Below are positions 6,954-33,574 of a DNA stretch of 64,000 nucleotides, piece by piece. Under the pieces are notes generated by a model that saw only the letters and a program-made list of their open reading frames with translations, was not told the origin of the DNA and did not search any database. The first letter of the stretch is position 1; each line of letters opens with the position of its first letter. The stretch spans positions 1,085,501 to 1,149,500 of the forward strand of contig JAHQRK010000013.1 of NCBI GenBank assembly GCA_019828595.1, written 5' to 3'. Source of the stretch: Aphanomyces cochlioides. Its lineage: Eukaryota > Oomycota > Saprolegniomycetes > Saprolegniales > Verrucalvaceae. Made by a program: the position numbers and the translations under genes.

Positions 6954-8060
6954 TTACAACGTGATTGTACCACTGGGTACCCCCGAAACATCGGACCCTT
7001 CCACCTCCTCACCAGTCGAGCGCAAAATCGCGCGGACCGAGCCGGACCCAGCAATGTAGAGTCTCTGTAAAGCTGGCAACTGCTCATCTTGACGAGCCAA
7101 CCATTCGGGCTTGCGGCACCAAGGCTCGTCGGCATACTGAACGTATGGGAATGGTGTCGTTCGCTGAGTCGCCAGACCCGAGTTCAATCGATGAGCCAGT
7201 TCGTCAACAAAATTTACCTTTTTACTGGCGTAACGTGCAAACCAATGCAAAATTTGCCACGCCCAAGACATACGCTTCTTAGGAGGCACCGCTTCATCAA
7301 ATGTATACGCGGCCATAGCCGACGCGTTCATCAATCCAGGATATTTTGAAAAATCCGGGAACCGACTATGCCCGTACTCGCTCATATAGGCGATGACTCG
7401 AGCAGCCCCATCTGGTTGTTCTTCAGCTAGAGTCCGCAAGGTGCAAGGGCCTTGAGCCAACTCAGGCCAGAAAGGATGCACATTGAAAAATAGGAACTCG
7501 AAGACTTCGAGGCCTTCCATCTCTTTCAGGTCGCCGATCAGCTGGCCCATGACCCCTTTTGCCTTTTCAAGCAACTTTCGTGAAGTCTGTGCCGATTGAT
7601 GTACCTACAGCACGAATAGTACTTGCTCCCTTATGAATTACCTTACCGCATGTGGATTCGTCCGGTATAAACCAACTCCCACGTAAAAATATCGCTGCCA
7701 AACCACATATCCATATTGACGCCAGAAGCTATACCAACGCTGATTCCATTGACGTTGGGGCGCAGTAAGTCCCGGCAGAAAAGAGCGGAAGTGTCCTATC
7801 CAGAGGACCCACGGGTCTTGACTCTCAAGGTTCATATACGCGGCCTTCACTAAGTCGGGCATCTCAATATGTCTGAGATGATGGACACCACTTGCATCAA
7901 TCCTCTCCGCCATTGCTAGTTTTGGGACCGCCGCCTCATTGAGCTCTTCTTGGTCTGAGTCGTCAGAGTCCAACGAAACATGCGATTCACTATTGCTTGA
8001 TACAAGTATTACGTCACGTCTTGGACTCTCCTATCCTAGCGGGAACTCGGGTGTAGCCAT
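6954..8060 (-). pseudogene. Gypsy-1 reverse-strand accessory gene, two exons, one TAG
   Basis: Read on the minus strand, an ATG at 8060 opens a frame running through 7647. A GTAAGG...CAG intron of 60 nt (7587-7646) joins it in phase to a second open segment ending with TAA at 6954. The frame has one TAG ten codons after the ATG, again where CAG would restore Gln. The protein (about 350 aa) has an acidic Ser/Asp-rich start and then an unusually Trp/Tyr-rich stretch (RQWNQRWYSFWRQYGYVVWQ). I recognise no domain family. It lies between pol and the 3' LTR, antisense to the element. A minus-strand ORF at 8166-8528 could be an upstream exon: a GTGATT donor near 8172 can be joined in phase to an AG just before this ATG. 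That join is inference. Confidence 0.6.
7587..7646 (-). other. Predicted 60-nt intron in the Gypsy-1 reverse-strand gene
   Basis: Minus-strand GTAAGG donor follows codon GCG, and a TCGGCACAG acceptor precedes ACT TCA CGA. Both sides are phase 0, and the intron holds the only stop between two long open segments. Seen in sequence; splicing itself is untested. Confidence 0.65.
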
Positions 8061-8165
8061 TTCTCGAATCGATAATGCGCCTCACCAGCTCGATTTATGA
8101 CGTTTCGTATCCCGTTCAGTATCTCTCTCTATGCCGCCGTCAAGAGGATATCTCAATTAGAACGG

Positions 8166-8528
8166 TTAATCACCTGTCCCGCGCTTGATGGTGGATGGCT
8201 TCTCGCTCTGTAGCGTGCGTTGAAGAAGCCGCTCGTTTGCCTTCAAAGTCCGAAAGGCGGATATGTCGTCCAACACGACTTTTGATACGACGATCTTCTG
8301 CGCTTTTGTGGCGGTGATCCACGCCTCAAACTCGTCCAGCGCCAACATATTCTCTTCTCCCGCTTCGCCGGCCAGCTCTTGGGACTGCTGGACCGACAAC
8401 CCCAACATTTCCATGACTCTCTCCAGACCGACATTGGCCGTGCCGACAGCTTCCGTGGCCTCTTGAACCATTCGGGCCAAAACCAGGGCGCGTGTCTTCA
8501 CGCTTGTGGCCTCTTCGTTGTCACTCAT
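8166..8528 (-). CDS. Gypsy-1 reverse-strand small helical protein or first exon
   Basis: ATG at 8528 opens 120 codons to TAA at 8166. The protein is acidic, Ala/Glu/Leu-rich and predicted helical (EATEAVGTANVGLERVMEML and onward), with no recognised domain. The start codon lies 168 nt inside the 3' LTR and the gene is read away from it, as in the two other Gypsy elements here. It may stand alone or be exon 1 of the gene starting at 8060: its last codons contain an ACAG/GTGATT donor that would skip the TAA. Confidence 0.5.
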   Translation of the reverse strand: MSDNEEATSVKTRALVLARMVQEATEAVGTANVGLERVMEMLGLSVQQSQELAGEAGEENMLALDEFEAWITATKAQKIVVSKVVLDDISAFRTLKANERLLQRTLQSEKPSTIKRGTGD

Positions 8529-8683
8529 CTTGCCCTCTGAACACAAAACTTGTGGTGTACGCTCATTGGCAGTTTAATTCTCTCGACCAGATTGGTTGAA
8601 ACCTCTCGCAATTCCTTCTTCCAACACTTTTCCTGTCAGTACCCCACGCTCATCACCTCGGTCGATCGACGTGGTCGATCTTT

Positions 8684-8695
8684 AGTGGGGGGGTA
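8684..8695 (+). other. Gypsy-1 polypurine tract
   Basis: AGTGGGGGGGTA lies immediately before the TG of the 3' LTR, the position where second-strand DNA synthesis is primed in LTR retrotransposons. Confidence 0.8.
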
Positions 8696-8996
8696 TGTGA
8701 CGGTGATGAGCGTGTCACCACCTGATTGACACGCATCCCTTTGAGTAACCTTCCCGGGACCTTCCTCAGCGAAAGGTCCCTCATCCTCCATGAAAGGACT
8801 CCTCGTCCTCGACAGCTCGTCCTCGAGCTTGCATATGCATGTGTAGATTAGAATTCATTTCCACCTTTAGTACTAACAAGGTCTTCATCCTACCTTGTGC
8901 GTCATTCGGTGTCCTGTGAGATTACGATTGCCTGGAGATCAATTGCGGTTGATCATCTTTGTTATTTGTGACTATCTCCCTCACCCCCTCGTCACA
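8696..8996 (+). repeat. Gypsy-1 3' LTR (301 bp)
   Basis: Starts TGTGACG and ends CGTCACA, a perfect 7-bp inverted terminal repeat with the canonical TG...CA ends, directly after the polypurine tract. Its partner LTR is not in the window, so the boundaries rest on these terminal features. Confidence 0.8.
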
Positions 8997-9071
8997 GGAA
9001 ACTGCTAGGGAAAACTACCCTACGAGAACACACTATATTGTAAAGCGCATCTGTTGAGTCACACCGCTGCG

Positions 9072-9456
9072 ATGCCCGAAGAAAGCGCGCCAAAGCGCCG
9101 ACGCGGAAAGAACTTCCGTCAAGTTGACGACGAAAAACTTTGTTCCAGTTGGTTGACGATATCTCAAGACTCTATCATGGGGAATGGCCAGAGGCTGGAC
9201 GCGTTTTGGCTGCGTGTTGCCGATGATTTCAACGCTGGAACTCACGAGAATGATGAATGGTACCGTTCAGCGGCGTCGCTGTAGTCGCATTGGAGTGGGC
9301 TACAAGCTGTTGAATGTAAAGATCCACGAGGTCATCATCAGTCTCGACAGTATGAGAGCAGCTGGGATTGACAGAGAACATATGGCAATTGGCTTTGCAA
9401 TAGCGTTTACAATGGCTCGCGGTGTGGAGATTCGAGTTCTCCATGCTAAACTTTGA
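9072..9456 (+). pseudogene. Trihelix/Myb-like DNA-binding protein fragment (Harbinger-type partner)
   Basis: The frame from ATG 9072 encodes RRRGKNFRQVDDEKLCSSWL and then FWLRVADDFN, the pattern of trihelix/Myb-like proteins that accompany PIF/Harbinger transposons and are abundant in plants and oomycetes. TAG at 9282-9284 falls where the family usually has Gln before a ..RWSGLQ block; here SHWSGLQAV follows the stop. About 20 codons later the homology moves to another frame, which stays open to TGA at 9454-9456. One nonsense and one frameshift make this a relic. Only about 75 nt separate it from the Gypsy-1 LTR. Confidence 0.6.
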
Positions 9457-9803
9457 TTTACGCATTTCAATTTTAGCCTAACGATACCCTACGCGGTGCG
9501 GATGCTCTTACTTACTTTTATTTGGTTGTAGTGTCTATTCGATTCAAAATTTGATCACCGGTTGATTTACAAATCGATTTGTGTGTGTTTTGACGTGTAT
9601 TTTAGCATTACTAAATACAATTTAGTAGCTATTACTCAGCATTCCGATGTGAACTACACCTATTATCCGGATTTTAGCACAATTTCGTCCGGATAAGCTC
9701 TGACTTTCGGTTAATTTGACAAATAACCGGATTTTATCCATTCGGATAAAATTCGAGTTTTGTTTGAACAACAATATATAAAAAATTTCACGTCGATCAA
9801 CAA
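9457..9803. other. AT-rich non-coding stretch with TATCCGG motifs
   Basis: No gene seen. Between 9660 and 9765 there are several short TATCCGG/CCGGATA words in both orientations, like those at the ends of the Merlin-type elements further right. This may be an old transposon end. Confidence 0.5.
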
Positions 9804-9875
9804 GGTCCTATAGTGTAATGGTTAGCACCTAAGACTCTGAATCTTGTATTCCGGGTTCGAGTCCCGGTAGGACCT
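9804..9875 (+). tRNA. tRNA-Gln (anticodon CTG)
   Basis: All four arms fold: acceptor GGTCCTA/TAGGACC (7 bp), D-stem GTGT/GCAC, anticodon stem TAAGA/TCTTG closing the loop CTCTGAA, and T-stem CCGGG/CCCGG around TTCGAGT. The anticodon CTG reads CAG (Gln). Discriminator is T, CCA is not encoded and there is no intron, as expected for a 72-nt eukaryotic tRNA gene. The T-arm TTCGAGT matches the pol III B box. A short T run follows (CTTTTTCC), usable as a pol III terminator. Confidence 0.95.
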
Positions 9876-12599
9876 AACTTTTTCCTTTCATTGCCTCTTG
9901 CTATCAACCATAGGCATTTTGTTTGCCACTAGAACTCTCAGTTATGGAGTATGTATCACATGGCTATTGCAAAGACGTGCGTTAAATCTGCGCTGGACAA
10001 AAGTGACCAGCCAGTCCAAACGACGAAAGGGATGCTGTTCCGCGTTAACAATTCGGAAGGGGAATCACCACTAGATCTCCGCATCCAGGTGCAATGCCCT
10101 GGTTCAATAGATTCAATTCTAAGTTGGCGTCATGCTGGGTATGCAGAATTGATTGTTGCAACAACTGTGGCGTCGGAACTGCCATTGGAGCTGGTATTAC
10201 ATTGCTTCAGCGTTGTTGTTTCATAATTAACACGCTACTATTGCCTGGCGAATTTACTCAGCCGCGTACTTACACTACCAATTGCAGCCCTAGCTGATGT
10301 AACTACACTTCAGATCCTCACTTGGTCGGCGGTTATTGGCCAGCGTGTAGTTCTGAGGGGACAGCGCTGACGCCTGAAGGGCCCCCTTATTTGTCCCAGT
10401 TTCGGGTATATGCGGGAGAGCGTGTCAGTGCGTGTGGTATGCCACTACTGAATGGCCAGGCCAATGGCTGCCGTCGCTTTGCGCGTGTGAGGCTGTGGGA
10501 GTCCCGTCATGTTGGCGTCATGTGCGTTTGATGGCCAAGTTGGTCAAAATTCTAGGAGTCGTTGAATATATTTCCCCAGCGGGCTGGTGGAAGCACCCGC
10601 AAAGACTGTGCTAGTGCCAAAATCACAATTGGATGGAAGCTTGGTACTTGCGACGTGGGAGTCCTAGTGATACACGGCTCGAGAGTGGCGAAGAGAAAGC
10701 GTTGATCCAGCGGCAGTCGTGATGTTGGCAATGAGAGTGTGGCTCGGAGCTTTGCGGTTGAACCCTTGGCCGTTCTTAGTGCAAGGCATGAAGACGGGGC
10801 TACGAGTGGCGACCGCGGTGGTACAAACACCATGGTGGTTGATGCAAAGAGCTTTGTCACTACCTACAAATAGCTCAAGGATTTAATCATTCATGATGAC
10901 ACACACTGCGCTTTCCCAAGAAGTTATTGGTGTTCGTCAAACGAAGAACTTGTGTATTCAACATGATTTGCTGCTCAGGCTATCGGGACATGCCAACAAC
11001 ATCAAGTACTTAACGTTTGGCAGCCGTTTAGTGGCCGTTACTGTGATCCTCTTCTTGTCGACAAACTTCGTTTAGAGCGCAAGCTCTCAGCCGTTGAGAG
11101 CGACACGTTTGCTCTTCCGCAAGCGCGATCGAGGATTCATCGTTGTGCGTTGGGTCCCAGGTCTTGCTGCACAGCTAGCGGAAAAAGTTTAGTTCGCGTG
11201 AGGGGAGCACACATACTGTACCATCAACTCATTGAAATTGCGTCTGCAGGACGAACTACCGACACCTCTACCGAATACCAACACGAGGGCGTGAGAAGGC
11301 AAGAGTGTTTCGCCATAGTCCATTCTAACCGGGCAGCAAGTTGATGTGAAGCTTTGTTTGGACGAGCAGAATGCCCGTGTCAGTGCGATGCCAAGCGCGA
11401 CGTTCACGCAAGACCAGACTTTACTCGGGCCGGGCCGTTTTGTGGTTTTTCAGTCGCCATGGCCACATCAGCTTGTTCTTGGCGTCGTCTTGGGGATATT
11501 GCTTCACGTGGGCAGACTAGGCACTCACCCTTTTTCGCTAGGTCCTATACAGGGGCCAGTCAATTCACGGTTGAGGCCGAGCCATACATTCCTTTAAGGG
11601 AAGGCGTGAAGACACTATTCGTCAGCTCAGCCCTGAAAAGACTCGGGGGAAGTGAATTAGTCAATGTGGTGGTTCCGACATGACAGCTGGTGTTTTAGAA
11701 ATCCGCGAAGCAATTGTTGGCGTTTGACTCTGGAAGGCGTTGGAAATTGCAACACCCCTGGCCTCGGAACAAGTTCAATCTTCTGTGTGAAGTTGTCACG
11801 GGATCTCGAAATGTTCTGGGTTTAGTGTGTCACGCAAATCATGTCCTCTCCATGGAAGGAAAGGTCGACAGATTAGACTGAACGTCATCATAGATCCATT
11901 GATTGTGCCATGGACCGTCAATGATCTCGCTCTTTCTGTTTCTCCCGCAAGAGTAAGCCCCAATCTCCGGGTGGTATCTCGAGAGGGTCTTGGGTCGGCA
12001 GACCTAGCTCGACGATCAATCTGGCTCCGCTGTGATGCACCCCAAACTTACGACCCAAACGATATGGTTTCGAACGTTATCTGTTGCACCATGACGCAAA
12101 GGTGACAGGAGCAACTTTGGTTTTAGCCGGGTATACTAAATTTACATGATGGAATCCAATGGGAAAAGGACGGCAAACTGCAGGGATGTTATAGACATTT
12201 GCGCTGATTGTCCCATCTGCTATTGTTGGCCATATGGATGCAATGTCCTGTTACGACCGAAGATTGCTTGTCGCCTGTGTGTACTTGTTCCAACTATGCA
12301 CCCAAGCAGCTCTGTGCAGTGGATGGAAGCCCCAGACGAGACGCAACTCGTTGCTTCTCCAAAGCATGTCCGATTCCAGCAGATGATTTCGACTTTGTCC
12401 TACGCAGTAATGTTGATTCTTTCGCGTTTGGTATTGAGTACTTGAGGTATACAAGACTAAATATTGTCCACATACATATATGGATTCCTGTAAGGAGATG
12501 CCAAGTTGTCAATTCCCAACTGTTGGTGTAGTGACACAATCAACAAGCAAACCCAGTGAGGCGTCATGACCCAGCAGGCTTCATTCCCGTGACTCTTCG
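9876..12599. other. 2.7-kb region with no recognisable gene
   Basis: Only short overlapping ORFs under about 110 codons on both strands, none with a recognisable domain or a good start context. No long inverted or tandem repeats seen by eye. It could hold untranslated RNA or decayed repeats. Confidence 0.6.
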
Positions 12600-12617
12600 A
12601 TTCATTTTCAGTTTTTA
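12600..12617 (+). promoter_or_regulatory. Oomycete-type initiator before the zinc-finger gene
   Basis: ATTCATTTTCAGTTTTTA sits 5 nt before the ATG at 12623. It resembles the oomycete core promoter (Inr TCATTYY plus flanking pyrimidine/AT tract). The same form precedes the S28 gene and the glycine-rich genes. Confidence 0.5.
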
Positions 12618-12622
12618 CCACT

Positions 12623-13159
12623 ATGATGCAATGCATGTTTAATGGCTGCACCCTCCAAGTCCAAGAAGGCTCAACCAAATGCGCAGCCCACCGCAATCGC
12701 ACCAAGAGCGATATCCTCAATTGCCCCAACCAAGCCTACGCCCGCGGAGTTTGTGTACGTCATGGCGCTAAGCGAAACTGTGCGGTCCCGCAATGCCAAC
12801 TCAATCGTCGATTTGGATCGTATTGCTCCAAGCATGCCGATGCAACTCAAAAGAAGCAATGCGAAATGGAAGGTTGCAAGAACCAAGCCCATGCCCGCGG
12901 CAAATGTGTGCGACACGGAGGCGGCCACTTGTGCAAGGCACACGGATGTCATCGCCACGCGCGTCTGGGTGGATTTTGTTCACGGCATTCTGTTTATATT
13001 ACCATATCAAAAATGCAACTGGGAGCCCCAAAAGCAAAACCCGACCACCTCGACTTGGCCATCCTACAAGATTTGGTGAGCGATGTAAGTGCAGCAAGCA
13101 CTACGTGGCTCAGTGAGTCCGAATCGCAACAGCCAGTGAAGTTGATGTGGACATTGTAG
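12623..13159 (+). CDS. WRKY19-like Cys/His-repeat zinc-finger protein
   Basis: 178 codons from ATG 12623 to TAG 13159. The protein has five or six short repeats of the type C-x4-C-x3-A(H/Y)ARG-x-CVRHG and CxxxxCxRxxRxGxxCxxH, for example NQAHARGKCVRHGGG and LGGFCSRHS. This pattern is typical of oomycete proteins labelled WRKY transcription factor 19-like, though there is no WRKYGQK motif here. The spaced Cys and His are expected to bind zinc, and the function (nuclear regulator or other) is unknown. The C-terminal 50 residues are low in Cys and non-repetitive. An initiator-like sequence lies just upstream. A second ATG two codons in is equally possible. Confidence 0.75.
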   Translation: MMQCMFNGCTLQVQEGSTKCAAHRNRTKSDILNCPNQAYARGVCVRHGAKRNCAVPQCQLNRRFGSYCSKHADATQKKQCEMEGCKNQAHARGKCVRHGGGHLCKAHGCHRHARLGGFCSRHSVYITISKMQLGAPKAKPDHLDLAILQDLVSDVSAASTTWLSESESQQPVKLMWTL

Positions 13160-14389
13160 TTAGGAAACTCGCATGTATTTATCTCCAACTTGTCGAAACA
13201 GAGAATTGACAATGTGAGTTCTCATGCTTTGTTTACTACTTGGCAATACCAATATGGTTGTCATGAAGCAGCAGAATGGGATGCAAATTGCGAACGAACC
13301 AGCAGATCGCGTTCAATACGGTTAAGTGTGGCGATCTAGGCTGGACAAGTTGATTCGGTGGGCAAGTTTCGCCAGGTATCTTACAAATGGCAGTTGCAGC
13401 GATGTTGAGTGAACTCTGGCACATTCTGCTCGTATCCTACGGCTTCCAGGAACTCTGGAACAATACACAGTTTCACCACTACTGTGCGATAAGTTTGGCG
13501 TCTGTCATATGGCACAAAGCAGTGTTGATTGTTACAGGTGGCTTTGACTAACAACTATAAGATAGTTGTCGTGACATCTGGATCTGACAGCCAGCTTATT
13601 GCACGAAAACACGATGGAAATCCTTGTGCATTTGTTCTTGTCGAAGTCGTTGGCAAGGATCGAAAAGCTTCTTATATGAGGACCGACAACTAGTTTAACA
13701 TGGGCAATTAATGTTGCGTGTAATTTACTGTTAGTCCGTTTTAGGACGCTCTGATGACTGAGAGCTTCTCAACTAATTTGGAATCGCTATTACTAAATGT
13801 GAAAACCAAATTGGCTCGGTAAATGTGGCTGAAGAGAATTTTCAAAGTCAGTTTGATGTATTCATATACAAAACGGTTTGAAATTTGTTGGGGTATACCT
13901 TGATCATCGACCGTTCTACCATGCACCCCTTATGCCTCAAGGAGCACTTCTCCACTTCCGTCGACCACAACTGGGTATCTTATAGTCCGTCTCAGCGCTC
14001 AATCAGTTCTAATGAGCAGCTACTTAAGGCAAGCTCATTATCCCCTATTGAGTGACGTGACCCTGCTACTCAGTAAGGGTGGACAATTCAACCCATGCTC
14101 GACACAGGTCATCGGAGCATTCAGACTGGTTAGCATGCTAGAGTAACTCCGGATTATCACTCTAACCTCCGAAAACTGAGTCTTCAAGTCGATTTTCGTG
14201 CACCAACAAAAATCTTATCTTGGTACCTATAAATTTGAAAAGGTATTTTTTGCAGATTATTACCGGTACTACGTAGTACAGTAACATTATCTCCTCGATT
14301 TTCGCGCAAGGGATCAATCAATATAGAACCGAATGCCCAATTCCTCAAAAAGCAAAAGTGGAAATAAAATATTGTGGATTCGTTTTTTG
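13160..14389. other. 1.2-kb region with no recognisable gene
   Basis: Short ORFs only. Increasingly AT-rich towards 14390, where the mariner-like element begins. Nothing else supported. Confidence 0.6.
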
Positions 14390-14391
14390 TA

Positions 14392-18126: not shown

Positions 18127-18875
18127 TGTGGGATGGTCGGATCAGTGAAGTCCGAGCTTCTCGCCGCAAGAAAAAGGGGGGTGGAAGGTCGCCTGGGGCT
18201 TTTAGGTGAGCCAGACGCGATCGAAGGAAATGGAGAGGCACGACTGTGGGTTGAAAGTCCGCAGTAGTTGACCGCTGCTGGGGGAGGTGACGGTGGGGAG
18301 GACCGGGAAGGGGGTTGGTTGCTCGGTTGCCCACGAGCTACGCCTAGCGTTGACTGGCGTTGGTGAGGGCGATTGACGGTGCGGGTTTTCGACAGACCCA
18401 CGGAACTCCTGCAAACTTCTTGGCGCTTAAACTCTCTCGACGGGACGCCACAAACTTAAAGGTTCATTCAACGCCAGCCAAAAAGAGTTCTGTCTAACTA
18501 CTGCCTCTGTTTCCTAAGCTACTCCTAACTTCGCACGCACGCTCTGTAATTGTCTCCGTCTCGCTCCACGATTGGTCTCTGACCTTTACTCACTCACTCA
18601 ATTGGCCATAAGTCTTGGCAGCACGCTCGCAGCAGGCCACCACACTGACTGCAAGCCTGGTTGGCCGCCCTCCATTGGTGGCCACTGCTCTGGCATGTTG
18701 GGCTCTGCTTTTCCACTCGTACTGCTTGCTCCTTGGTCATAATTCCTGGACAATCCGGCACTGCAATCCACTCGTAGTCCGTCGCGATTGGCGACCTTCC
18801 AGCCAATAGACCATCGCTCTTTGTGTCAACTTACGTGTTGGATCGGTTTCGCGAGAGGCGGCTCGCTTTGCCACA
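18127..18875 (-). repeat. Gypsy-3 3' LTR (749 bp)
   Basis: Begins TGTGGGATGG and ends TTTGCCACA on the + strand. By eye it differs from the right LTR by five substitutions and a 7-nt indel near 18189. The next bases inside the element (18876-18886) read as a purine-rich tract AACCACCCCTG on the complement, fitting a polypurine primer. Confidence 0.9.
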
Positions 18876-18976: not shown

Positions 18977-19833
18977 ATGGAGGTCAGCTTCAACAGTCAT
19001 CGCCCACACTCGTATCTGTCAAACGACTCTTCGGATCTCGAGCCAAAGCGATCGTTCACCGCCAATCGTAAGCCACAAGTCGTGCGCCGCAAGGACAAGA
19101 TCATTCGAGACAAAATGAGTCAGTCGCTACCATCGCCACCACCGGCCGAGTCATCGCTACAAGGGCCAGGCTCACCACAAGATGTTTCGTCGGTGGCGCC
19201 GCTTCCCGGGATTTTCTTGGTGTCGGGCAAACTGGGAGATAATGCCGTCAACTCGCCGGAGCATTCTCCACTGCCACAGGACAACGAGTCCGATGATGAG
19301 ACTCCATTTGATGCAAGCACTCCTGGGCCGTTCAGCAGCGACCCCATCGAGGAGCTCAAAAACCAGGTCAACCACATCAATCACATTCTGGCACGGATTG
19401 ACAAACAGGACGCGGCCATAATTGAGATGAATGAGCGAGTGGCTACACAAACCACCGCCGCGGAGCAGCTCAACAGCCGACTCACTCGACAAAAGGCATC
19501 CGTTGACAATGTAGCAAACAGTGTGGTTCAATATGGGCGAGCTGTGGTCAAGCTCGCAGCCGACTTGGACAACCTTCGACCGAGCTCGCCCAGGGTGTCA
19601 TGCGATTGAATGAGTTGCTGGCGCAGCACTTGAAACGATATCCCCTGGACCATCGCGATGCCAATCGTGACATGAGGGGGCACATGGGCGCACCATGCTT
19701 GGGGATTACACCAGGAGATTTGCCTAACACGCCATCGTGCTCCCATTACAAGGACGAGTGCCCCTTCGGATACAGCTACCACATCGACGGCCATGGTCCT
19801 CGCATTGACTTCCCCGCGCTGCCCCTCGACTGA
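18977..19833 (+). pseudogene. Gypsy-3 reverse-strand ORF A, coiled-coil protein, one frameshift
   Basis: On the + strand, antisense to gag-pol, ATG 18977 lies 101 nt inside the 3' LTR. The first 210 codons give a basic then Ser/Pro-rich acidic N-terminus and a heptad-rich segment (EELKNQVNHINHILARIDKQ onward). Near 19575-19590 the natural continuation (ELAQGVMRLNELLAQHLKRY) is in another frame, which ends at TGA 19833 after a Cys/His-containing tail (SCSHYKDECPFGYSYH). A one-base indel is likely. No family is recognised. It could form an oligomeric capsid-like or RNA-binding partner, but that is speculation. Confidence 0.5.
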
Positions 19834-19967
19834 TCGGCTCACTTGACACGCTTAGAATCATCGTAGTATAATCCCATTGGCCGATAATACAGGAGCATTT
19901 GTTGATCGATTTCATGAGTCAGTTTGTTCACGGACTCTGTGCACCGTCCTCGCTAACCAACTGACCG

Positions 19968-21021
19968 ATGCCATCAAAGGGCTCTGACGGAGCCAAGCCA
20001 TCAGGCTCACAATCCAACCAGCTCGCGCCCCAGCCAGCCGTCATGTCGTCCTTCCAAGCCGCTTTGAGTATAGCCGCGTCGGAGCTCACTACCGAGCTTG
20101 GAAACCACACTCTGCGCCTCCAAGGGGTCTTCCCTGGTGCCGCCTCTCCGTTAGCCGACCTCCCTTCGCTTGCGCACGCAACTGTTGATACGCTCGCCAA
20201 CTCCCGGCAGCTGATCAGACGTGACGCTCGAGGATGGATTCACGATTCGAAGGCACGCCAAGAGTTCATCTCCATCGCCCATTCCTTGCTGCTCAGGAAC
20301 AGTCACCAACTCGCGGCCAGCGTTCTGGCTACAGCGCAAGCGACGCAGCAAATCAGCGTTCTTGAGGAGCAAGTGGGGACCCAAGCATATCTCATTCAAC
20401 TACAGGAGAGCCGCATTGAGGCGCAGGGGCGGCAAATCGACGCGTTGGAGGCTCAGGTACTAACATCCACTCGCCCTTGTTGAAGCAATTCGTGTAGCTG
20501 AAGGCCCTGTCGGAGGCGAAGGGGTCTGAGGCCTTATCAAGCATCGTTGTCACGCCTGCCAGTGGCCAGGATTTCTCCAGTGCGGGTGTTGACCTCGGTC
20601 CACCCATAGACACGCCACCAAGTTCACCTGTCGCGCGCATGCGCGAAGCCATTCGGGAGTCTGTAACGATCGATTCTGACGGAGCAGCCACACCGCCGGC
20701 TGACCAGGACGGTGATCTCTTTGCGGCCCCGCATCTCCTGTGGTAGACAACTCTGACGACTCCGACTATGAGATAATGGAGAACCCGGGAGCCGCGACAA
20801 AGTCGTATTGGGTGTACGAGGACAAAACATCAGCAGAAGCTCAGCGCTACCGCCAAGCCATGGACGAGAAGCTGTGTGACCACCGCTACCCTGGGAAGGA
20901 AGACCAGCACTGCGCTCTACCTCTGGCGGATTGCATGGAACGTAGACTTGGCCACCACGGGGAGCAATGTCGCTGGATCACGACGAAGCATATGGCTCGC
21001 TGCAAGGCCCCAATCAAGTAA
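19968..21021 (+). pseudogene. Gypsy-3 reverse-strand ORF B, spliced coiled-coil protein
   Basis: ATG 19968 opens 163 codons ending in a long helix (QISVLEEQVGTQAYLIQLQE). A GTAC...GTAG intron of 41 nt (20457-20497) joins it in phase 0 to a second open segment (20498-20746) with TPPSSPVARMREAIRES. That frame stops at TAG 20744, but acidic sequence (DNSDDSDYEIMENP) and a Cys/His-rich tail (CDHRYPGKEDQHC, CMERRLGHHGEQC) continue in another frame to 21021, so an indel near 20730 is likely. The protein is unrecognised. It lies antisense between pol and the 3' LTR, downstream of ORF A on the same strand. Confidence 0.5.
20457..20497 (+). other. Predicted 41-nt intron in Gypsy-3 ORF B
   Basis: GGCTCAG/GTACTAAC donor and TTCGTGTAG/CTG acceptor, phase 0 on both sides. 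It removes a TGA that would otherwise end the first segment. The length is very short, close to the 45-nt introns predicted elsewhere in the window. Confidence 0.5.
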
Positions 21022-21229
21022 TTGTCCCAACATCGTCAGTGGGCGCCGCAACCACCTCCAGGCAAATTGTATCGCCGCGAGTTTTCCACTCGCCCAAAAG
21101 GAGTCGAAGCCCGACGCTTTTTTCTATGCGAATACCGATCTTACAAGCAGGAGTTCACGGGTTCCGACAAGAAGAAACCACGCATCATCTAGCTTGAACC
21201 AACGACCAAGTTCGGGGCTATCGAACTAA

Positions 21230-21862
21230 GAGCATCTCCAGCAAGGGTTTCTATTTGTATTTGCATTTTTAAGTTTTTCCCCCTCTCATTGGTCAGTTGC
21301 CAAGTTGGAAATAGAAACACAGAACACTCTGCAGCAGTTGAGTTGCTATTGCTAAAGGTGATGGAAACGCGAGTGCGCTTTGATGATGTCGACGGGCTAT
21401 CTCTGTTGGTCGACGAAGATGACGATGACTTTGTTCTTGCGACGTTGCTTTTCAAAAATGCCCAGCAAGCAAAGGCAAATCCAACCCCTAGTATCTCGGT
21501 CGATAGAAACACAGCTGTGGGTCACGATGCAATCATGAGAGATTACCTTGGCGACAATCCCGTGTATGACGAGAAGATGTTTCAAAGACGATACCGCATG
21601 TCATCTCGATTGTTTAAGCGCATTCTGCGTGACTTGCCTGTTGCAAACAATTACTTTCAGCAAAGGAGCAATTGTGCTGGAAAGCGAGGTGCCTCAGTGG
21701 AACAGAAGGCAACAGCTGCGATTAGAATGCTTGGAATGGCAGCAAGTGCTGACTCACAGGATGAATATTGTAGACTGGGTGAATCAACATCAATGGAAGC
21801 GAGGTATCAATTCTGCAAAACCATCATTGATATGTACGGCGTGGAGTACATGACAATGAGCC
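21230..21862 (+). pseudogene. Harbinger-type transposase, 5' part only, inserted in Gypsy-3
   Basis: The left end starts GAGCATCTCCAGCA after TAA, the form of a PIF/Harbinger terminus with a 3-bp target. ATG 21361 then encodes 167 residues of a Harbinger/ALP1-like transposase: DYLGDNPVYDEKMFQRRYRM, KRGASVEQKATAAIRMLGMA, DSQDEYCRLGES. The frame breaks off at about 21862, exactly where antisense Gypsy-3 integrase sequence resumes. The catalytic DDE half and the right end are therefore missing, and most of the Gypsy-3 integrase is missing too. One deletion spanning the insertion would explain both. Confidence 0.75.
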
Positions 21863-22242
21863 AGCACCACCTTGACCAGGACTCGCGGGATCACCAGCTT
21901 CCATTGCATGCGCTCTTCGGGCGATCTCTTCGACGACCACTCGACGCGGTATAGAGCCCCTCGCTCGCCGACTTCAAACTGACCGGCTAACTTGGGCAAT
22001 AGGCGACACTCCGACTCAGTCAGGTGGCTGACCTCGCCTCGCAAATAGCACTTAATATTCGCCAACTCTTTTTCTCGGTCTTGTGCCTTGCTCACTCGGT
22101 CCAGTCTCAGTGCGGCCATTTTCTCCGTCGACCTTGCTTGGAACGCCATAATCATCGGGGTTGCAGTGACAGCGGTGGGATGCAGAAGCTCTGGCAGCAG
22201 GTTGCGTCGCTGTAGCTCTTCCAGGACCGACTCATCCAGCAC
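21863..22242 (-). pseudogene. Gypsy-3 integrase N-terminal remnant
   Basis: In a frame shifted from pol, the minus strand encodes a linker (LANIKCYLRGEVSHLTESEC) and the beginning of an integrase zinc domain (VVLAHCHVLHAVH). It breaks at about 21862 before the CxxC half and the DDE core. The frame change from pol lies near 22235, next to a GAG/GTAAGTG sequence that also resembles a splice donor. The element copy cannot make integrase. Confidence 0.6.
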
Positions 22243-25200
22243 TTACCTCCAGCACGGTCTTGCAGCGCGAGTCCAGCCAGCAGATCAGCAGCGCCGTTCC
22301 ATTCCCGCTTCACGTGGTGAAATTCCACCCCAGTCGCTTGGTTCCTCAGCGCACGGACCCGATCGAGGCAACTCTGCAGGTGGGACTGCTTGCTCTGCAT
22401 CCACCCCAGTACTTGGTGGATGACTAAGCGGGAATCGCCAAATATCACTGGGTTCGCCAGGCTCAGCCTCAAGGTACGCTCCAGAGCCGCAATCAGTCCA
22501 CTGTACTCCGCAAGGTTAACCGTCGCATCGGCGAGGACCCCATTTTCTGCCCACAGTACGCTCCAGCCGGGAAGTTGCCAAATCACAAAGCCATAGCTTC
22601 CGAACTTCTCCTTTGCTTTAATAGCGCCATCAAAGGCGATCACCACAGCCCGTTCGTCGGGGTCGAATCGTGGCAAAGCGGCTGGCCGTTGGGAAACTTG
22701 CACATCCTTAGCTTTATTGGGCTTGTACACGTCCATATCAGCCAGTGTCAACGCGTCTGGGGGGTGCAGGATGTCCATCAAGCGAATCGACAGGGCCCAT
22801 CGTTCGTCCAACTCGACCACTTGTTCCACGCGAATCGTCCACGGTGACAGGATTGCAGCCCACGGCAGATGATCGGCCTTGCCATGCTTGTCAGCGAGGA
22901 TCCACTTCAGGAGACCATGCCTACTGTAGACCACCAGCTGCATGTTGCGCAACTCGTAGTAGCAGACCTTGACGGCGCGCAGCAGAGCGAGAGCCTCTTT
23001 TGCCCATTCCTCGTAACGCGGCTCGCCGCCCTTCAGGGTCCGACCACAGAACCTCACGGGATGCAGCACTCCATCATAGTCCTGACAGACTGTCGCCGAA
23101 ATCGCCCAAGTTGTCGTGTACAACAGGATGTGGAACTCTCGGCCAGGATCGGCATGACGCAGGAGCGGTGTCGACGAGTAGGCTGCCTTCAGGTCAGCGA
23201 ACGCACGGACAGCAGCGGGCGACACCAAGCCAAGGCGTAGTTCTTCGTCCAAGATCTCGTACAGACAGCTCGCCAAAATCGAGTAATTCTCGATAAATCG
23301 GCTATAAAAATTCTGCGAGCCCAGGAACGATTGCATATCACGGAGGCACTTCGGGAATGGCATGGCTAGGACCGTATCGAGACTCCACGGCCTTGCTACC
23401 AATCCTCTGCGAGATACAACGTGGCCAAGGAAATCGGTTGCGAATTTGCCAAACTTGCTCTTCAGGGCCGAGATGCTCACGCCGAAATAGGTCAAGCGCG
23501 CCAAGATACGATCGGTCAGCTCCACAATGCCATCCCACGAATCAGCGCCGTCGCTTATGTCGTCGGCGAACGATGTGCGGTTAGCCGGCGGTGGAAGCTG
23601 CGATAAGTAGCATTTAAATCCCAAGGTAAACATATCCACCGGCTCACCATCAGCATCATCGTCGGCCACCCCTGGTGGCATGTCCACAAAGCCAAACAAC
23701 GCGTTCGTAATCATCCGCTGGTATATCATCGGCGCATTCTTGAGTCCTTGTGCCATTCGCGTCCATTCGAAGTGGCCCAACGCGCAGATGAAGGCACTGA
23801 CCTTGCGCGCCCGCTTGGTTGCACGCACGACCCAAAACCCAGATGCGTTGTCGAGTGATAAGAACCACTGCATCGCGTGGAAATTGGCTAGCATTCCGTC
23901 CAGCGTTGGCATCGGTGACCGCATGAGTTCTTGGAGCTCGTTGATACCCCGGTAGTCGATGCAAAGACGGATATCTTTGCCGCCTTTCTTGAGAACCAGC
24001 ACGATCGGGGAGGCCCAAGGCGAATTCGAAAAGGTGATCAGCCCAAAGTCCAACAATCCTCGCAGGAGGTCAAACAGTTTCTTCAGCAGCTCCGGGCGGA
24101 TGCGCCTTGCTCGTTCAGCCAGCGGCTTTGCCTCACCGACGTCGATGTCGCAGACGGCTCCCTTGGCAGGCGGCGGCAGTCCGTTGCCCGACTTGATAAA
24201 GAACTTTCGGTACTTGCGGAGGACGACTCTCATTTTCTCTTTTTCTTCATCACTCAATTCATCCTCGCCGACATCCAGTTGATCGGGATCGAACGGCTCT
24301 ACCTCGCGCGGCACTTCAGGGATTATGGCTAGCTGCTGCTCCAATTCTTCAGTTGACAAATCGATTCCTTCGCGCAGCATTACTTCTTTAGCCATCCGTC
24401 GCTGATCCAAGTTGTCGGGCATCGCGTCCATCAGGAAGATTGATGGCGGAGGTAGCGTGTCCCGAAAGTGGCAAGCATGGTAGCAGAAGACAGCATGCAT
24501 CCTTAGCTCGGCGGCTTCCACCGGATCCAGCGGCACTTCATGGTCGTCCGCCGATTGCGCAATAGGGGGCCGTTCGTCATCCAGGCCGTAGTCACCGTCG
24601 CTTTCGCAGGTAGTACGCAGTTTCCCGTCGGCAGTGAGCAAGTGTCTAGGTGACGGGGGTCGTGGCTCCTTCCAGCTGTTGTCGTCAGCTGACTCGGCCG
24701 CAGCTTCTTCCAATCTCGCTCGGTGGTCATCGGGGTAACTCCCTTCCCACGCTTCCGCTTTCCATGCTTGATATCTCAAACTGCTCGTGCGCACCATCGG
24801 CCGGCTGAGCGGTCGCTCGCCTTGAGCTGAGATTGCTCCGACAACAGTGTTGGCAGACAGAAACACGTTGCGTTCGCTGACGTTTGTGACCTTGTAGGCT
24901 GCTGGTTTGTCGTCGGCGTCTAACGCAGTGGTAATCCAGCGCACATCGCGATGAACCCAGTATTCCAGTGTCTCTGGCATTCCTTCTCGCAGCTTGGGTA
25001 AAGGCACAACGATTGATCCACCGGGCGGGATGCTCACATCGTGGTTCAGGCGCACGTAATTCATGTAGCCACGACTGTAGCGGACCGGCTGGTCGTGTAG
25101 TTCGACGTACTCGCCTTCAGGTAGGTTCAGTTCGCGACGACTCGCATCCACCATGACACCAGCGCGGAACAGGAAATCCATCCCAAGGATGGCGTCGAAG

Positions 25201-26129
25201 CCAGTGTCCCCAAAGTCGCAGACAGCGATCGGGAAAACGTAAACCAGCCCGCGACCAATGGTCAACTTGATGTCTACGATGCCTTGAGTGTTCACAACGG
25301 CGGCTCCTCCAAGGCCAGCTATATCAGTCGTCTTCGTTGTATCCACTTTCAGGCCGAGCTTCTTGACGACCATGGGATGGATGATGCTCATGTTGGCGCC
25401 AGTATCTGCCAGGACTACCACCGCTTGATCCATGATTTGCGCATTTAAGAATGCTTGGCGGGTCATGTCGTTCTCGATGAACGTTGTATCTTGCCAATGA
25501 CCGAAATGTTCGCCTTCCTTGAGCCCGTACTCGTCTGACAGCGCCACGCAGTCGGCAACCGAGTAGAAAACAAAAGGTCTGTCGGGAAGGTTGGATGTAT
25601 TCTTGGTTACTGGGGGAACTTTCAGGAAGCCAACATGGTTGGCGGCGTTGGCGTCGCGTCGACTATTGATTCTGTCTTCATTCTTGGTTGCTTCTTCAAC
25701 GCTTGCCGTAACCGCTCGCTCTTGTTGCTTCCTCTTCCATCCACGAACCACCTCAAAAAGCTCTTCGAACTCCGTCAGTAAGGTTCTGGTGGGGGCTATT
25801 TTTATGGATTTTTCTTGGTTTTTTGATGATTTTGGGTTTTCGTCATTTTTCAGTTTTTCTTGTTTTTTTGAGTCAGTGTGCGATGTCCGACGTCCGTCGC
25901 GGCTGGGGTATCGCGGTCCCCACGGACTTACAAGTTTAAACAATCCAGGCTGGGCATGTCGGGGATGTCCAGCCCTTGCAGGAACTCCTTCAGCTCGGCG
26001 GCTTGTTGACGAGTCGGGCACGGATCGGCTTTGTGGTGCGGTGTCGCGCAAAGTTGACAAGCCTTGAAGCAATTGATCTCCGGGTGCCCCATGCGCTGAC
26101 ACAGGGTGCAGAAGACCGTTGACCAGCAC
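22152..26129 (-). CDS. Gypsy-3 pol: protease, RT and two RNase H domains
   Basis: Open for 1325 codons in the -1 frame relative to gag, with 202 nt of overlap. Translation should enter by frameshifting at 25934-25940, so codons before that are not Pol. Domains in order: aspartic protease (VVLADTGANMSIIHP); RT (IRLCIDYRGINELQE, WFLSLDNASGFW) whose YxDD box reads SFADDISDG after an insertion of about 40 residues; a first RNase H in which the usual Asp block is replaced (FHILLYTTTWAISATV); and a second RNase H of the archaeal/cellular type with all acidic residues in place (VVIAFDGAIKAK, VNLAEYSGLIAAL, IFGDSRLVIHQV, NGAADLLAGLAL). Dual RNase H Gypsy elements are known in oomycetes and plants. 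The frame ends at 22152, short of integrase. Confidence 0.88.
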   Translation of the reverse strand: MLVNGLLHPVSAHGAPGDQLLQGLSTLRDTAPQSRSVPDSSTSRRAEGVPARAGHPRHAQPGLFKLVSPWGPRYPSRDGRRTSHTDSKKQEKLKNDENPKSSKNQEKSIKIAPTRTLLTEFEELFEVVRGWKRKQQERAVTASVEEATKNEDRINSRRDANAANHVGFLKVPPVTKNTSNLPDRPFVFYSVADCVALSDEYGLKEGEHFGHWQDTTFIENDMTRQAFLNAQIMDQAVVVLADTGANMSIIHPMVVKKLGLKVDTTKTTDIAGLGGAAVVNTQGIVDIKLTIGRGLVYVFPIAVCDFGDTGFDAILGMDFLFRAGVMVDASRRELNLPEGEYVELHDQPVRYSRGYMNYVRLNHDVSIPPGGSIVVPLPKLREGMPETLEYWVHRDVRWITTALDADDKPAAYKVTNVSERNVFLSANTVVGAISAQGERPLSRPMVRTSSLRYQAWKAEAWEGSYPDDHRARLEEAAAESADDNSWKEPRPPSPRHLLTADGKLRTTCESDGDYGLDDERPPIAQSADDHEVPLDPVEAAELRMHAVFCYHACHFRDTLPPPSIFLMDAMPDNLDQRRMAKEVMLREGIDLSTEELEQQLAIIPEVPREVEPFDPDQLDVGEDELSDEEKEKMRVVLRKYRKFFIKSGNGLPPPAKGAVCDIDVGEAKPLAERARRIRPELLKKLFDLLRGLLDFGLITFSNSPWASPIVLVLKKGGKDIRLCIDYRGINELQELMRSPMPTLDGMLANFHAMQWFLSLDNASGFWVVRATKRARKVSAFICALGHFEWTRMAQGLKNAPMIYQRMITNALFGFVDMPPGVADDDADGEPVDMFTLGFKCYLSQLPPPANRTSFADDISDGADSWDGIVELTDRILARLTYFGVSISALKSKFGKFATDFLGHVVSRRGLVARPWSLDTVLAMPFPKCLRDMQSFLGSQNFYSRFIENYSILASCLYEILDEELRLGLVSPAAVRAFADLKAAYSSTPLLRHADPGREFHILLYTTTWAISATVCQDYDGVLHPVRFCGRTLKGGEPRYEEWAKEALALLRAVKVCYYELRNMQLVVYSRHGLLKWILADKHGKADHLPWAAILSPWTIRVEQVVELDERWALSIRLMDILHPPDALTLADMDVYKPNKAKDVQVSQRPAALPRFDPDERAVVIAFDGAIKAKEKFGSYGFVIWQLPGWSVLWAENGVLADATVNLAEYSGLIAALERTLRLSLANPVIFGDSRLVIHQVLGWMQSKQSHLQSCLDRVRALRNQATGVEFHHVKREWNGAADLLAGLALQDRAGGKCWMSRSWKSYSDATCCQSFCIPPLSLQPR
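25892..25940 (-). promoter_or_regulatory. -1 ribosomal frameshift signal between Gypsy-3 gag and pol
   Basis: On the minus strand the canonical slippery heptamer TTTAAAC (25934-25940) lies in the correct phase (T TTA AAC in the gag frame). Six nucleotides follow, which include the gag TAA stop at 25928-25930. A stem can then form between GTCCGT (25922-25927) and ACGGAC (25892-25897), with a second block GGGG/CCCC inside it. Pol is open in the -1 frame across the site. The match to viral -1 frameshift signals is very good in heptamer, spacing and structure. Confidence 0.85.
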
Positions 26130-27365
26130 AAACCGTCCAACTTGAAGTGCGTCTTGCCACAGTCACGACAAACTTCGCGGCGCGCCTCATGATTGTTGAG
26201 TCCAAGAGCGAAGATTTCAGCGCGCACAGAGTCAGTCGCCGCAGTCGCCAACTTGGCCATGTCCGTTGAGGTCACAGCGTCCAAGTGGTTGACACGCGGA
26301 ACCTTTGCACGTTCTTGTCGCTGGTCGCCGCTCAGTTGGGCCGTTCCTCGTTGGCTGCGATGCTCTCGCAATGCTTCAGTGTGGCGCTGGTCATTTAAGT
26401 ACTCCTTCAAGTCGTCCATCGAGGTGAAACGCATCGAGGAGATCCACTTGGCTTGGCTCGGATCCGCCAGCGAGTTGCAAAAGCACCGTAAGTGGTCGAC
26501 AAAGTGCTTCCGATTGGTGTCGTACTTGAGACCGATCTTCGTGGCAGCCGCGTTGAAGCGGAAGAGGTACTCGCGGATGGTCTCCTTCTCCTTTTGACGC
26601 ATCGTGTAGTAGACCTCCTGCTTGGGCACTGGACTGAGGATGTACTCGCGGACGAAGCTCGCACGCACGGCCTTCCAAGTGGATCGTTCGTCAGCTCGCA
26701 GCTGGTTGTACCAGTCTTGGACGACTCGGCCGACAGTCAGGCGGAACTTGCGCTTTGCCTCGTCGTCAGTCCATCCGCTGGCGGCCGAATTCTCCTCGAA
26801 TCGTCGGAGGAAACTTGACGCCGCATCGGTGCCGTCGGCGGATCCGTTAAATCGCTGCAGCGGCTCGAGCGCGAGGATATGCAGACGGGGAGCATTGTCG
26901 GAAGGGAGCCCGACAGGCGCAGTGTCCATGTTCCATTCGTCAAGATCGTCCTCGTCTTCCTGCACTCGCACGGAGGTTTGGTTGCTTTGCAGCTGCCGCA
27001 TCAGATCTTGGTTTTGCCTGACCAACACCGCGATCAATCTTGACTGGTCGTCGGCGGGAGCCGAAGGCGATTCATCGGCGTCCATGTCTTCGTCGTAGCC
27101 ACCAACATCGCTGCCGTGGCTTTGGGATTCCGCGGGATTGTTTTTGCTAGAGCGCGATCGCGCGTCTAGGTTGGTCGTAGTGGCGTGGGTCGGTGCCGCT
27201 ACTGATTGATATTGCCCGAAGGCAGTTGGAGTCTGCCCGTAACGACTCCTGGATGCCGCCATCGCTTGCTTCGCTTGCTCTGACGGGTCCAATTGCATGT
27301 CCACCGAAGTGGACGTCTGGTTGTCTGCTGACGCGTCCGACAGCAGGGTGGCAGGGTTAACAGGT
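25928..27365 (-). pseudogene. Gypsy-3 gag, cut eight bases after its ATG by Gypsy-2
   Basis: The frame is open from 27365 to TAA at 25928. Its first eight bases, ATG GTTAG, lie at 33858-33865 on the other side of Gypsy-2. Removing Gypsy-2 and one copy of its target duplication restores frame, giving a Gag of about 481 residues. The body has a capsid-type helical domain (FLRRFEENSAASGWTDDEAK, WYNQLRADERSTWKAV) and a nucleocapsid with a CX2CX4HX4C knuckle (CTLCQRMGHPEINC) flanked by further Cys/His pairs. It ends in the frameshift signal. An internal ATG at 27298 is the first remaining start in this copy. No other lesion is seen. Confidence 0.85.
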
Positions 27366-27370
27366 CTAAC
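27366..27370. repeat. Target site duplication of Gypsy-2, left copy (CTAAC)
   Basis: CTAAC directly precedes the left LTR here and directly follows the right LTR at 33858-33862. Five base pairs is the usual duplication length for Ty3/Gypsy integrases. Confidence 0.9.
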
Positions 27371-27633
27371 TGTAACCGGGCGCAGAGGATGTCAGGCGCG
27401 TGTGAACTGCGACTGAAGTGTAAGAGTGAATTAAAGTTAAAACAACCTAAGTCTCATTCCTGTCTTGTTTCTCGTTGGCTATCGCACAGCCTCACTAGGA
27501 GCTTCAACTTCTGTGGCCTCCCAAGGCCAGTCGTTCACATAGCAGAGCGCGGGGAACCGCTACTGCAGGGCGCCAGGTCAATGCACAGACCGCGCCCTCA
27601 TCTTATGTACCTGCCAGACATGGCACGGTTACA
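27371..27633 (-). repeat. Gypsy-2 3' LTR (263 bp)
   Basis: Starts TGTAACCGGG and ends CACGGTTACA on the + strand. Equal in length to the right LTR, with four single-base differences. Confidence 0.95.
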
Positions 27634-27646
27634 TCCTCCCACACTT
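27634..27646 (-). other. Gypsy-2 polypurine tract
   Basis: Minus-strand AGTGTGGGAGGA immediately before the 3' LTR, the expected plus-strand primer position. Confidence 0.75.
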
Positions 27647-27783
27647 AGGGCGAAAGCCCGTAAGCTTTGCAGAGATGCCTCCCTCGCTGGGGGTAATCCC
27701 TTCACAGTCCCGTCTGAACTGGGACTGGTGTGTTCCAACTATCACATTGGCCCTCGCTGAGCCAATCAGGAACATTTTCGAAA

Positions 27784-29058
27784 ATGTACGCCGACGAAGA
27801 GGTCGATTACGAGCACACGCCGCCCTCGCCCGATCTGGGCAGTCGCGAGCAAAGCGCAGCGCCGGCGCAGGGGCGCACCAAATACCTTGAGAACCTTTGG
27901 ATCCGTGAGGGCCAAACTCGACTTGGCGGTGGTGTCCACGCGCGGTGTCAGGCATCCGACACAGGATGCGATCTGACCTTTGATCAAATGCCAGGCTTCA
28001 CACCCTCTCGCAGTGGCACGCCCGATCCGGGCAAGTTTCGAGATTTGTTGGCGCAATTGCCTTCTCGCCTGCGCGGCGATTCTAAAAGTGATTTTGCGGC
28101 GGGGGTTGCCTTTGCAGTGACTTTGTGGGAAACCTGCAACCCCGTCATCGTCGATATGGCCGAATGGCCTTCGATCCGACAAGACCAGCGCCGCTTTGGT
28201 GGTATGCGCGCGTTTGTTCCTCTTTCTCCCTTGCGGGACGAAACTAAATTTGAGTACGTGGCCATCTGGGCCAACCGAATGCTGGCGCGTATTACGCTCG
28301 ACACCACGACGTGGCCCCACAACTACGCTAAGTTCCAAGAGCGTGTTGTTAATTTTGCGCGTGAGCGCCATGGCTTGAAGGTACGCCTCGCTGCCGAGAC
28401 CGTCGGAGCGATCGCTGTCGCGTACCAAAAGCTGAGAGTAGTCTATGTGAGTCTGGACCAAGGTCCGCTTCTCTCACCCATGTGTTCGTAGGAGCCGCCT
28501 CCGAATTTTGCGCCAGGAGGCGATACTCGCGGCCGTGCTGGCCCCAGCGCTGCGGGACAATCCGCGCGTCGTCATCGCGCCCCTCGTTCTCGCTCTCGCT
28601 CGACCGAGCCTGAGGCGAAACGTTCGCGCCGAGAGGCGGGGCGTAGTCCGAGTCGGGACCGCCCGCGATATGCGCTGGACGAAGATCTGTACCAGCTGCG
28701 TGATGAAGTTGCGGAGCTGACCCGCCAACTTGGTCACTCCGAACAGGAGTTTGAAGGTCGGCTTCAGGACCTTCAAGACGAGCTCCAGACTGAGCGCGAG
28801 AAGCGTCGCGACTTGCAATCGCGCTTCGAGAAGATGTCGAAGCTCTGCGAGCAACACGCGGCGACCGCCGAGGGCTTGAAGAACTGGGCCCGCGCGATGG
28901 ATGTTCACCGCGAATGTTTTTACAAGAAGAGCTCGGAGCTCGAGCTACTTGTTGAGCGTCTCGCGAAGGAGAGAGATCGTGTGGACGCGCATCTTCAAGC
29001 GCTCTACTCGAAGATCCAACAGGACTACGTTCCGTTTGAGGAACTGAAGAAGGGGTAA
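27784..29058 (+). CDS. Gypsy-2 reverse-strand gene: intact 409-aa protein, two exons
   Basis: Exon 1 is 27784-28446 and exon 2 is 28492-29058, with a 45-nt intron (GTGAGT...TTCGTAG) in phase 0. The start ATG lies 151 nt inside the 3' LTR and is preceded by a CCAAT box near 27763. Residues 1-220 are acidic then globular (FVPLSPLRDETKFEYVAIWA, LARITLDTTTWPHNYAKFQE). A basic Arg/Ser tract follows (APRSRSRSTEPEAKRSRREA), like a nuclear localisation or RNA-binding signal. The last 130 residues form a strong coiled coil (LYQLRDEVAELTRQLGHSEQ onward). No family is recognised. The 3' end overlaps the end of the integrase frame by 114 nt, tail to tail. It has no stop or frameshift although gag-pol of the same copy is broken. 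Confidence 0.72.
28447..28491 (+). other. Predicted 45-nt intron in the Gypsy-2 reverse-strand gene
   Basis: GTGAGT donor after codon TAT and TTCGTAG acceptor before GAG, both phase 0. Without splicing the frame ends at the TAG formed by the acceptor itself (28489-28491). With splicing it continues 188 codons in an otherwise open frame. Confidence 0.7.
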
Positions 29059-33565: not shown

Positions 33566-33574
33566 GGTCCTGGA

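Follow-up and report, generated by a model that had tools for sequence, protein, structure and literature searches.

Probable spliced antisense accessory genes beside the 3' long terminal repeat of Ty3/Gypsy retrotransposons in the oomycete Aphanomyces cochlioides

Antisense open reading frames (ORFs) situated between pol and the 3' long terminal repeat (LTR) are known from plant LTR retrotransposons, as set out in sections of two reports (PMC7264820, PMC11963269), and the fungal element Boty of Botrytis and Sclerotinia carries an antisense ORF in the same interval (a section of PMC7264820). Sections of these sources also describe an antisense gene near the 3' LTR of human T-cell leukaemia virus (HTLV), HBZ, whose product is a nuclear regulator (PMC11963269), and an antisense promoter in the HTLV 3' LTR (PMC7264820). 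Within the Saprolegniales, Archon Ty3/Gypsy elements possess a second RNase H (part of PMC5348765). Here we describe antisense coding sequence in three Ty3/Gypsy elements, Gypsy-1, Gypsy-2 and Gypsy-3, of a 64,000-nucleotide (nt) stretch of DNA (the window; C5:1085501-1149500 in an assembly of 76 Mb and 94 contigs) from Aphanomyces cochlioides, an oomycete of the order Saprolegniales. The species is a root-rot water mould. From their sequences, gene 1, gene 2 and gene 3 (named after their elements) are very probably real accessory protein genes, antisense and spliced, whose frames have been kept by selection; the explanation as a whole, that of selected, spliced antisense accessory genes of Ty3/Gypsy elements, we regard as likely. 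A limited literature search turned up no report of such genes in oomycetes, and the part of a paper on A. euteiches that was consulted (PMC8780586) contains nothing on them.

The likeness to the plant ORFs extends to position, orientation, a constraint like that on element proteins and a suggested nuclear, DNA-associated role (sections of PMC7264820 and PMC11963269). However, the Aphanomyces genes are spliced, with introns of 41-45 nt (the word "intron" does not occur in PMC7264820 or PMC11963269); they reside in another kingdom; the three families have no Pfam match above cut-off; relatives of Gypsy-3 hold three antisense ORFs in one element; and there are cassette-like islands of divergence, with the gene missing altogether from some relatives. 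No model of the plant Retand protein TRP28 came up in the Pfam scans, none of which was a test aimed at TRP28. Boty shares the slot by its published description, and HTLV HBZ and similar retroviral antisense proteins resemble the Aphanomyces genes by analogy only. Judged by its domains, Gypsy-3 is like Archon in its tandem RNase H pair, its lack of a chromodomain match and its Saprolegniales host (part of PMC5348765); the word "antisense" does not occur in that paper, and the antisense ORFs of Gypsy-3 seem to be added to the structure described there. New here are the Gypsy-1 relatives that are free of gene 1, the islands in families 1 and 3, and the gene-2-like genes in other elements.

In all three elements the antisense coding sequence sits in the interval that separates pol, or what is left of it, from the 3' LTR, as an earlier note made from the letters of the window had claimed, and its first ATG is found about 164, 150 and 101 nt from that LTR on the internal side (168, 151 and 101 nt in the note). 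The note had given each gene one short intron and had read 18977-21021 as a single gene. One intron is correct for gene 2 (45 nt), but gene 1 has two (45 and 42 nt), and the 41 nt intron of gene 3 is present but confined to one part of it: six relatives of Gypsy-3 (L069-L074) show three antisense ORFs, A, B and C, which rules out the single-gene model, and only ORF C has the intron. Within the window gene 2 is intact, but the copies of gene 1 and gene 3 are broken. The proteins had been called mutually unrelated, and profile comparison agrees, with no homology detectable between families (hhalign probabilities below 1%). Finally, the note had named frame conservation and the ratio of nonsynonymous to synonymous rates (dN/dS) as a check; the frames prove to be constrained in all three families, which have homologues in A. 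euteiches.

The predicted gene 2 protein contains a serine/arginine-rich (SR) run and a coiled-coil-like tail. Its length of 409 amino acids (aa) and its exon junction, VVY|EPPPNF, were both predicted before the search that recovered a deposited A. cochlioides protein (P0001) with this length and junction. The A. euteiches protein P0007 has the same junction, and P0008 and P0011 have other donors modelled with the same acceptor; we take these deposited homologues to be gene models. Exon 1 has at least 87 matches in the genome (98 candidates scored; all genome match counts given here are lower bounds, and several other counts are taken from best-scoring subsets). Among the best 30 of the 87, pol lies on the opposite strand at every locus, and an LTR is found about 150 nt upstream at all except L066. 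The ratio of nonsynonymous to synonymous differences per site (pN/pS) is 0.33 and 0.42 in the true frame of the two exons, the remaining forward frames giving 1.07-1.62. When pooled over the same loci, it is 0.34 for exon 1, 0.45 for exon 2 and 0.33 for part of the integrase, at similar pS (0.110, 0.120 and 0.108, respectively). Polymorphisms present in at least two copies have a third-position excess (codon positions 23:8:49 and 15:16:37), and singletons are spread more evenly (69:59:81 and 80:69:85). Taken together, the position counts, the polymorphism pattern and a pN/pS near that of integrase argue that gene 2 travelled with pol and was about equally constrained.

Exon 3 of gene 1 has at least 41 genome matches (42 candidates scored). 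Thirty loci were fetched (L009-L038), and the 18 with a fairly complete exon 3 start were used, the other 12 being fragmentary or overlapping other cuts from the same location. With the exception of L017, gene 1 is positioned tail to tail with a Gypsy-1-like pol, which lies just downstream on the opposite strand (17 of 18 loci). Intron 2 is likewise found at 17 of the 18 (L026 is without it), with a length of 41-43 nt and a GT[AG]AG donor; its ends and length are kept while its interior diverges, and the deposited protein P0016 has a junction identical to the one predicted. The exon 3 frame runs for 211-226 aa at 15 loci and is shortened in L021, L025 and L033. Among the 60 pairs listed, dN/dS is about 0.10-0.18 where dS is 0.85-1.6 and 0.14-0.56 in closer pairs, the remaining pairs being saturated and giving no ratio. 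In the pairs listed for gene and pol, diverged groups are 27-32% identical to the window copy in exon 3 and 70-74% in pol. In the window copy exon 2 is interrupted by two in-frame stops, and relatives without these stops exist. A 481 aa homologue in A. euteiches has 83% identity across the query, with the exon 2/3 junction in common.

Elsewhere in the genome, six open frames of 437-552 aa (a cluster at C34:3277804-3283739, and two places on C56, 1282586-1282996 and 1418290-1418757) are 29-34% identical to part of the gene 1 protein and cross the intron-2 junction without a stop. No integrase was found near them among the 150 places listed for PF17921 (150 of 492 candidates scored), and to judge by their sequence they are possibly a host family or old remains.

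In the window copy of Gypsy-3 a deletion has joined the coil of ORF A to the tail of ORF B, and ORF C is frameshifted and ends prematurely where its relatives continue to about 21192. The ORF C intron is 41 nt long in all seven copies (the window and L069-L074), and in L071 and L072 its interior has diverged with the splice ends kept. ORF A is open in L071-L074, B in L070, L073 and L074, and C in L069, L070 and L071. Over four copies, pN/pS is 0.17 for A, 0.16 for B, and 0.22 and 0.41 for exons C1 and C2; the pair L069/L071 gives 0.6-0.7 at a pS of 0.71-0.83, a synonymous difference so high that the value is little informative. The genome holds at least 79 matches to the window part of ORF A (101 candidates) and at least 43 to exon C1 (49 candidates), and homologues of ORF C reach 369 aa in A. 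euteiches. Each of the three ORFs has a stretch that is coiled-coil-like by eye, with weak scores to coiled-coil-type Pfam models, and each has a C/C/C/H motif in the same order, with four invariant columns over six hand-chosen stretches, two per ORF; no Pfam domain was found for these stretches.

The earlier note had also proposed a recurrent niche for accessory genes. Three unrelated families support this, as does a wider survey of the 3' parts of six elements (L081-L086), picked from the PF17921 list so as to have long frames and cover a range of scores, in which three have a gene-2-like antisense gene. The antisense frames of L081 and L084 are relatives of gene 2 (91% by hhalign probability), each followed by an SR run and then a coiled-coil-like tail. 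L082 is laid out in the same way, but its similarity is weak (about 4 bits), and its assignment, made mainly by layout, is less certain. The niche is nevertheless not universal. Two relatives of Gypsy-1 (below) are without the gene, and none was seen in L083, which has a DDE_1 transposase insertion, in L086, which has a chromodomain at its end, or in the fetched part of L085, where about 1 kb beside the integrase motif is unread. L085 shares a 360-nt stretch (95.8% identity) with L082, where the stretch starts beside the antisense gene; the fetched part of L085 is taken to be without the gene because the shared stretch comes within 52 nt of its end. (A first survey, of RVT_1 matches L075-L080, gave elements that were mostly LINE-like or lacked an integrase region, and is excluded from the count; one of these, L079, has a 516 aa protein kinase frame at 413-1960 on the minus strand, PF07714 at 161 bits, near its reverse transcriptase match.) Protein searches listed matches in Aphanomyces alone (14, 14 and 11 for the three families); such searches need shared short words, two of the three scored no more than 8000 candidates, and relatives outside the genus are not excluded.

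That selection has kept these genes suggests that the element gains something from them. A spliced mRNA would start from an antisense promoter within or next to the 3' LTR, and the intron would outlast retrotransposition since no splicing of the genomic RNA takes place on that strand. The coiled-coil-like stretches, the basic runs and SR-rich runs noted by eye, and the C/C/C/H motifs point to proteins that are nuclear, self-associating and nucleic-acid-associated. The gene products may thus be multimerising nuclear regulators that act in trans on how related elements are expressed or silenced, or on their copy number, a role read from sequence features that we put forward tentatively as our best estimate and would not call probable. 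A PDB sequence search gave no match with the gene 1 profile and two weak ones with that of ORF C (E 0.63 and 0.82). An Env-like identity was set aside, as no such Pfam family came up, a judgement made from the Pfam scans alone.

Several observations weigh against parts of this picture. The suggested regulatory role has no known domain in its favour, since no Pfam family scores above cut-off for any of the antisense protein families; two of the three window copies are broken; and in our own reading none of the six Gypsy-3 relatives has A, B and C all open together. The reverse frames of gene 2 give pN/pS of 0.51-1.40, some below 1 (0.508 and 0.861 in exon 1, 0.531 in exon 2), of which we take the two near 0.5 to mirror the third positions of the true frame. 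In addition, L087 and L088, with LTRs 90-91% identical to those of Gypsy-1, are without gene 1, their pol stop and LTR being separated by about 340-365 nt; their pol is 88-91% identical to that of Gypsy-1 over the main stretches and 79% in another piece of L087. Gene 1 may therefore be dispensable in cis. Both elements are damaged, L087 being without part of pol and L088 having two in-frame stops there, and either help in moving or a loss of gene 1 that preceded the decay may account for them. At the other places with Gypsy-1 LTRs, whose sequences are unread, the genome search gave no gene 1 match nearby, and relatives without the gene hold several places in the genome.

These points have to be set beside what other explanations would offer. 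The window does contain many chance ORFs, but the idea that the antisense frames are chance openings opposite a long 3' region is already refuted by the frame-specific constraint, the conserved introns and the deposited spliced homologue of predicted length. Alternatively, the antisense transcript and not the protein might matter, by pairing with genomic RNA and feeding or blocking silencing, with the ORFs incidental. Antisense transcription with a possible double-stranded RNA role has been discussed for other elements (a section of PMC7264820), and antisense RNA could act alongside a protein; a codon-level constraint about equal to that of integrase, the gene 1 exon 3 frame kept at high synonymous divergence and the kept introns make it very improbable that the ORFs are incidental. 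A further possibility is that the antisense genes are passengers of no use to the element, either captured from the host or brought in by nested insertions. This would accord with the C34/C56 frames, in that a related chromosomal family may exist, and with the two Gypsy-1 relatives that manage without gene 1. Passengers are expected to decay, however, whereas strong constraint is seen in many copies of these frames, which a second species has also kept, and unrelated families occupy the same slot; we consider this explanation unlikely.

Some pairs of copies in families 1 and 3 are near-identical around the antisense coding sequence but have islands of divergence within it. In the pair L018/L022 the LTR and leader are mostly 90-100% identical; identity falls to 44-90% (for the most part under 80%) close to the antisense ATG, stays there over most of the coding sequence, recovers partially near the 3' end of the gene, and is mostly at least 90% in pol. 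For 32 gene 1 pairs chosen for a gene pS of 0.2-0.65 (mean 0.50), the mean pS of adjacent pol is 0.18. In ORF A, L073/L074 are 96-99% identical to position 500, 69-81% at 501-800 and 85-99% beyond; L069/L070 have no island. On their sequence, the simplest reading of these islands is probably an exchange of cassettes between elements, with template switching during reverse transcription as one conceivable route. Against it stand L022/L023, where gene pS (0.10) is below pol pS (0.16), the correlation of gene 1 and pol identities (Spearman 0.87, 91 pairs) and the absence from gene 2 of any divergence excess over pol; the first two of these indicate that gene 1 and pol mostly share a history, with some breaks. 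It is conceivable, though in our view doubtful, that the antisense genes are exchangeable specificity cassettes, that is, discrete old variants on near-identical LTR and pol, moved by recombination in the manner of immunity or incompatibility types of phages and plasmids, and deciding the mutual repression or tolerance of element copies, or which host silencing is resisted. The source of gene 1 may then be the chromosomal family of frames that cross the intron-2 junction. The main rival to a trans-acting regulator is that the proteins suppress host silencing in an arms race, the islands marking escape. An exon 3 identity down to 27-32% where pol is still 70-74%, the cassette-like islands, and basic stretches (by eye) compatible with nuclear entry would all fit such suppressors. 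However, gene 1 dN/dS is below 1 in all comparisons computed and listed (0.10-0.56) and gives no sign of fast amino-acid change, and relatives that lack the gene occupy several places in the genome; we therefore think suppression rather unlikely.

The features of the three elements are collected in Table 1. Gypsy-2 is nested inside Gypsy-3, both on the minus strand, and its insertion (27371-33857) has a likely 5 bp target duplication, the flanks being judged by eye. In the Pfam scan of Gypsy-2 pol, rve (32.3 of 32.6 bits) and SH3_Tf2-1 (29.7 of 30 bits) fall just below their cut-offs. The scanned pol frame of Gypsy-3 has RT_RNaseH at 1005-1106 and RVT_3 at 1177-1297, with no match to an integrase or chromodomain; because no integrase domain was found in this frame, the copy may be damaged in pol too. 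A chromodomain, which is a Chronos trait, was not matched in the scanned pol frames of any of the three elements. Between ORF C and the pol of Gypsy-3, an open frame at 21193-21954 resembles a Harbinger-type transposase by eye, a reading for which there was no Pfam match at E 0.01. Outside the three elements, the window has a frame with repeated Cys/His units at 12593-13159 (Pfam Zf_WRKY19 above cut-off, 29.0 bits), a transfer RNA gene at 9804-9875 (Rfam RF00005, 64.6 bits) and, at 44900-60800, an array of tandem repeats with a unit of about 1.5 kb, which has shorter repeats inside it and long open frames on each strand.

Table 1. Coordinates of the antisense genes and of the elements that carry them (window positions unless a contig is named)
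Feature	Position	Strand	Remarks
Gene 1	6954..8528	-	exon 1 8528-8174, exon 2 8128-7647, exon 3 7604-6954
Gene 1 intron 1	8129..8173	-	45 nt, phase 1; from sequence, agrees with deposited protein P0023
Gene 1 intron 2	7605..7646	-	42 nt, phase 0, GTAAGG..TAG
Gypsy-1 pol	3111..6802	+	RVT_1, RT_RNaseH, Integrase_H2C2, rve, SH3_Tf2-1; convergent with gene 1
Gypsy-1 3' LTR	8692-8996 (approx.)	+	98% identity to 5' LTR over query 3-307
Gypsy-1 5' LTR	C5:1083351-1083655		about 2 kb ahead of window start
Gene 2	27784..29058	+	exon 1 27784-28446, exon 2 28492-29058; 409 aa, intact
Gene 2 intron	28447..28491	+	45 nt, phase 0, GTGAGT..TAG
Gypsy-2 gag-pol	28948..33586	-	several frames; Integrase_H2C2 above its cut-off
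Gypsy-2 3' LTR	27371..27633	-	LTR pair 98.5% identical, TG..CA ends
Gypsy-2 5' LTR	33595-33857	-	
Gypsy-3 ORFs A and B	18977..19833	+	fused in window copy by deletion of about 600 nt
Gypsy-3 ORF C	19968..21192	+	exon C1 19968-20456, exon C2 from 20498
ORF C intron	20457..20497	+	41 nt, phase 0
Gypsy-3 pol part	22152..26162	-	protease, reverse transcriptase, RNase H, second RNase H (RVT_3)
Gypsy-3 3' LTR	18127..18875	-	LTR pair 98.4% identical, TG..CA ends
Gypsy-3 5' LTR	33908-34663	-	

Antisense accessory genes of LTR retrotransposons have been known from plants and a fungus, without a known function. The oomycete elements place unrelated proteins in one slot, with selection on gene 2 about equal to that on integrase, and the Archon-like Gypsy-3 extends to antisense genes a convergence already known with the plant Tat elements, which have two RNase H domains. 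Close relatives that differ in having or lacking the gene, or that hold different variants of it, provide a natural comparison that makes the function of these genes testable.

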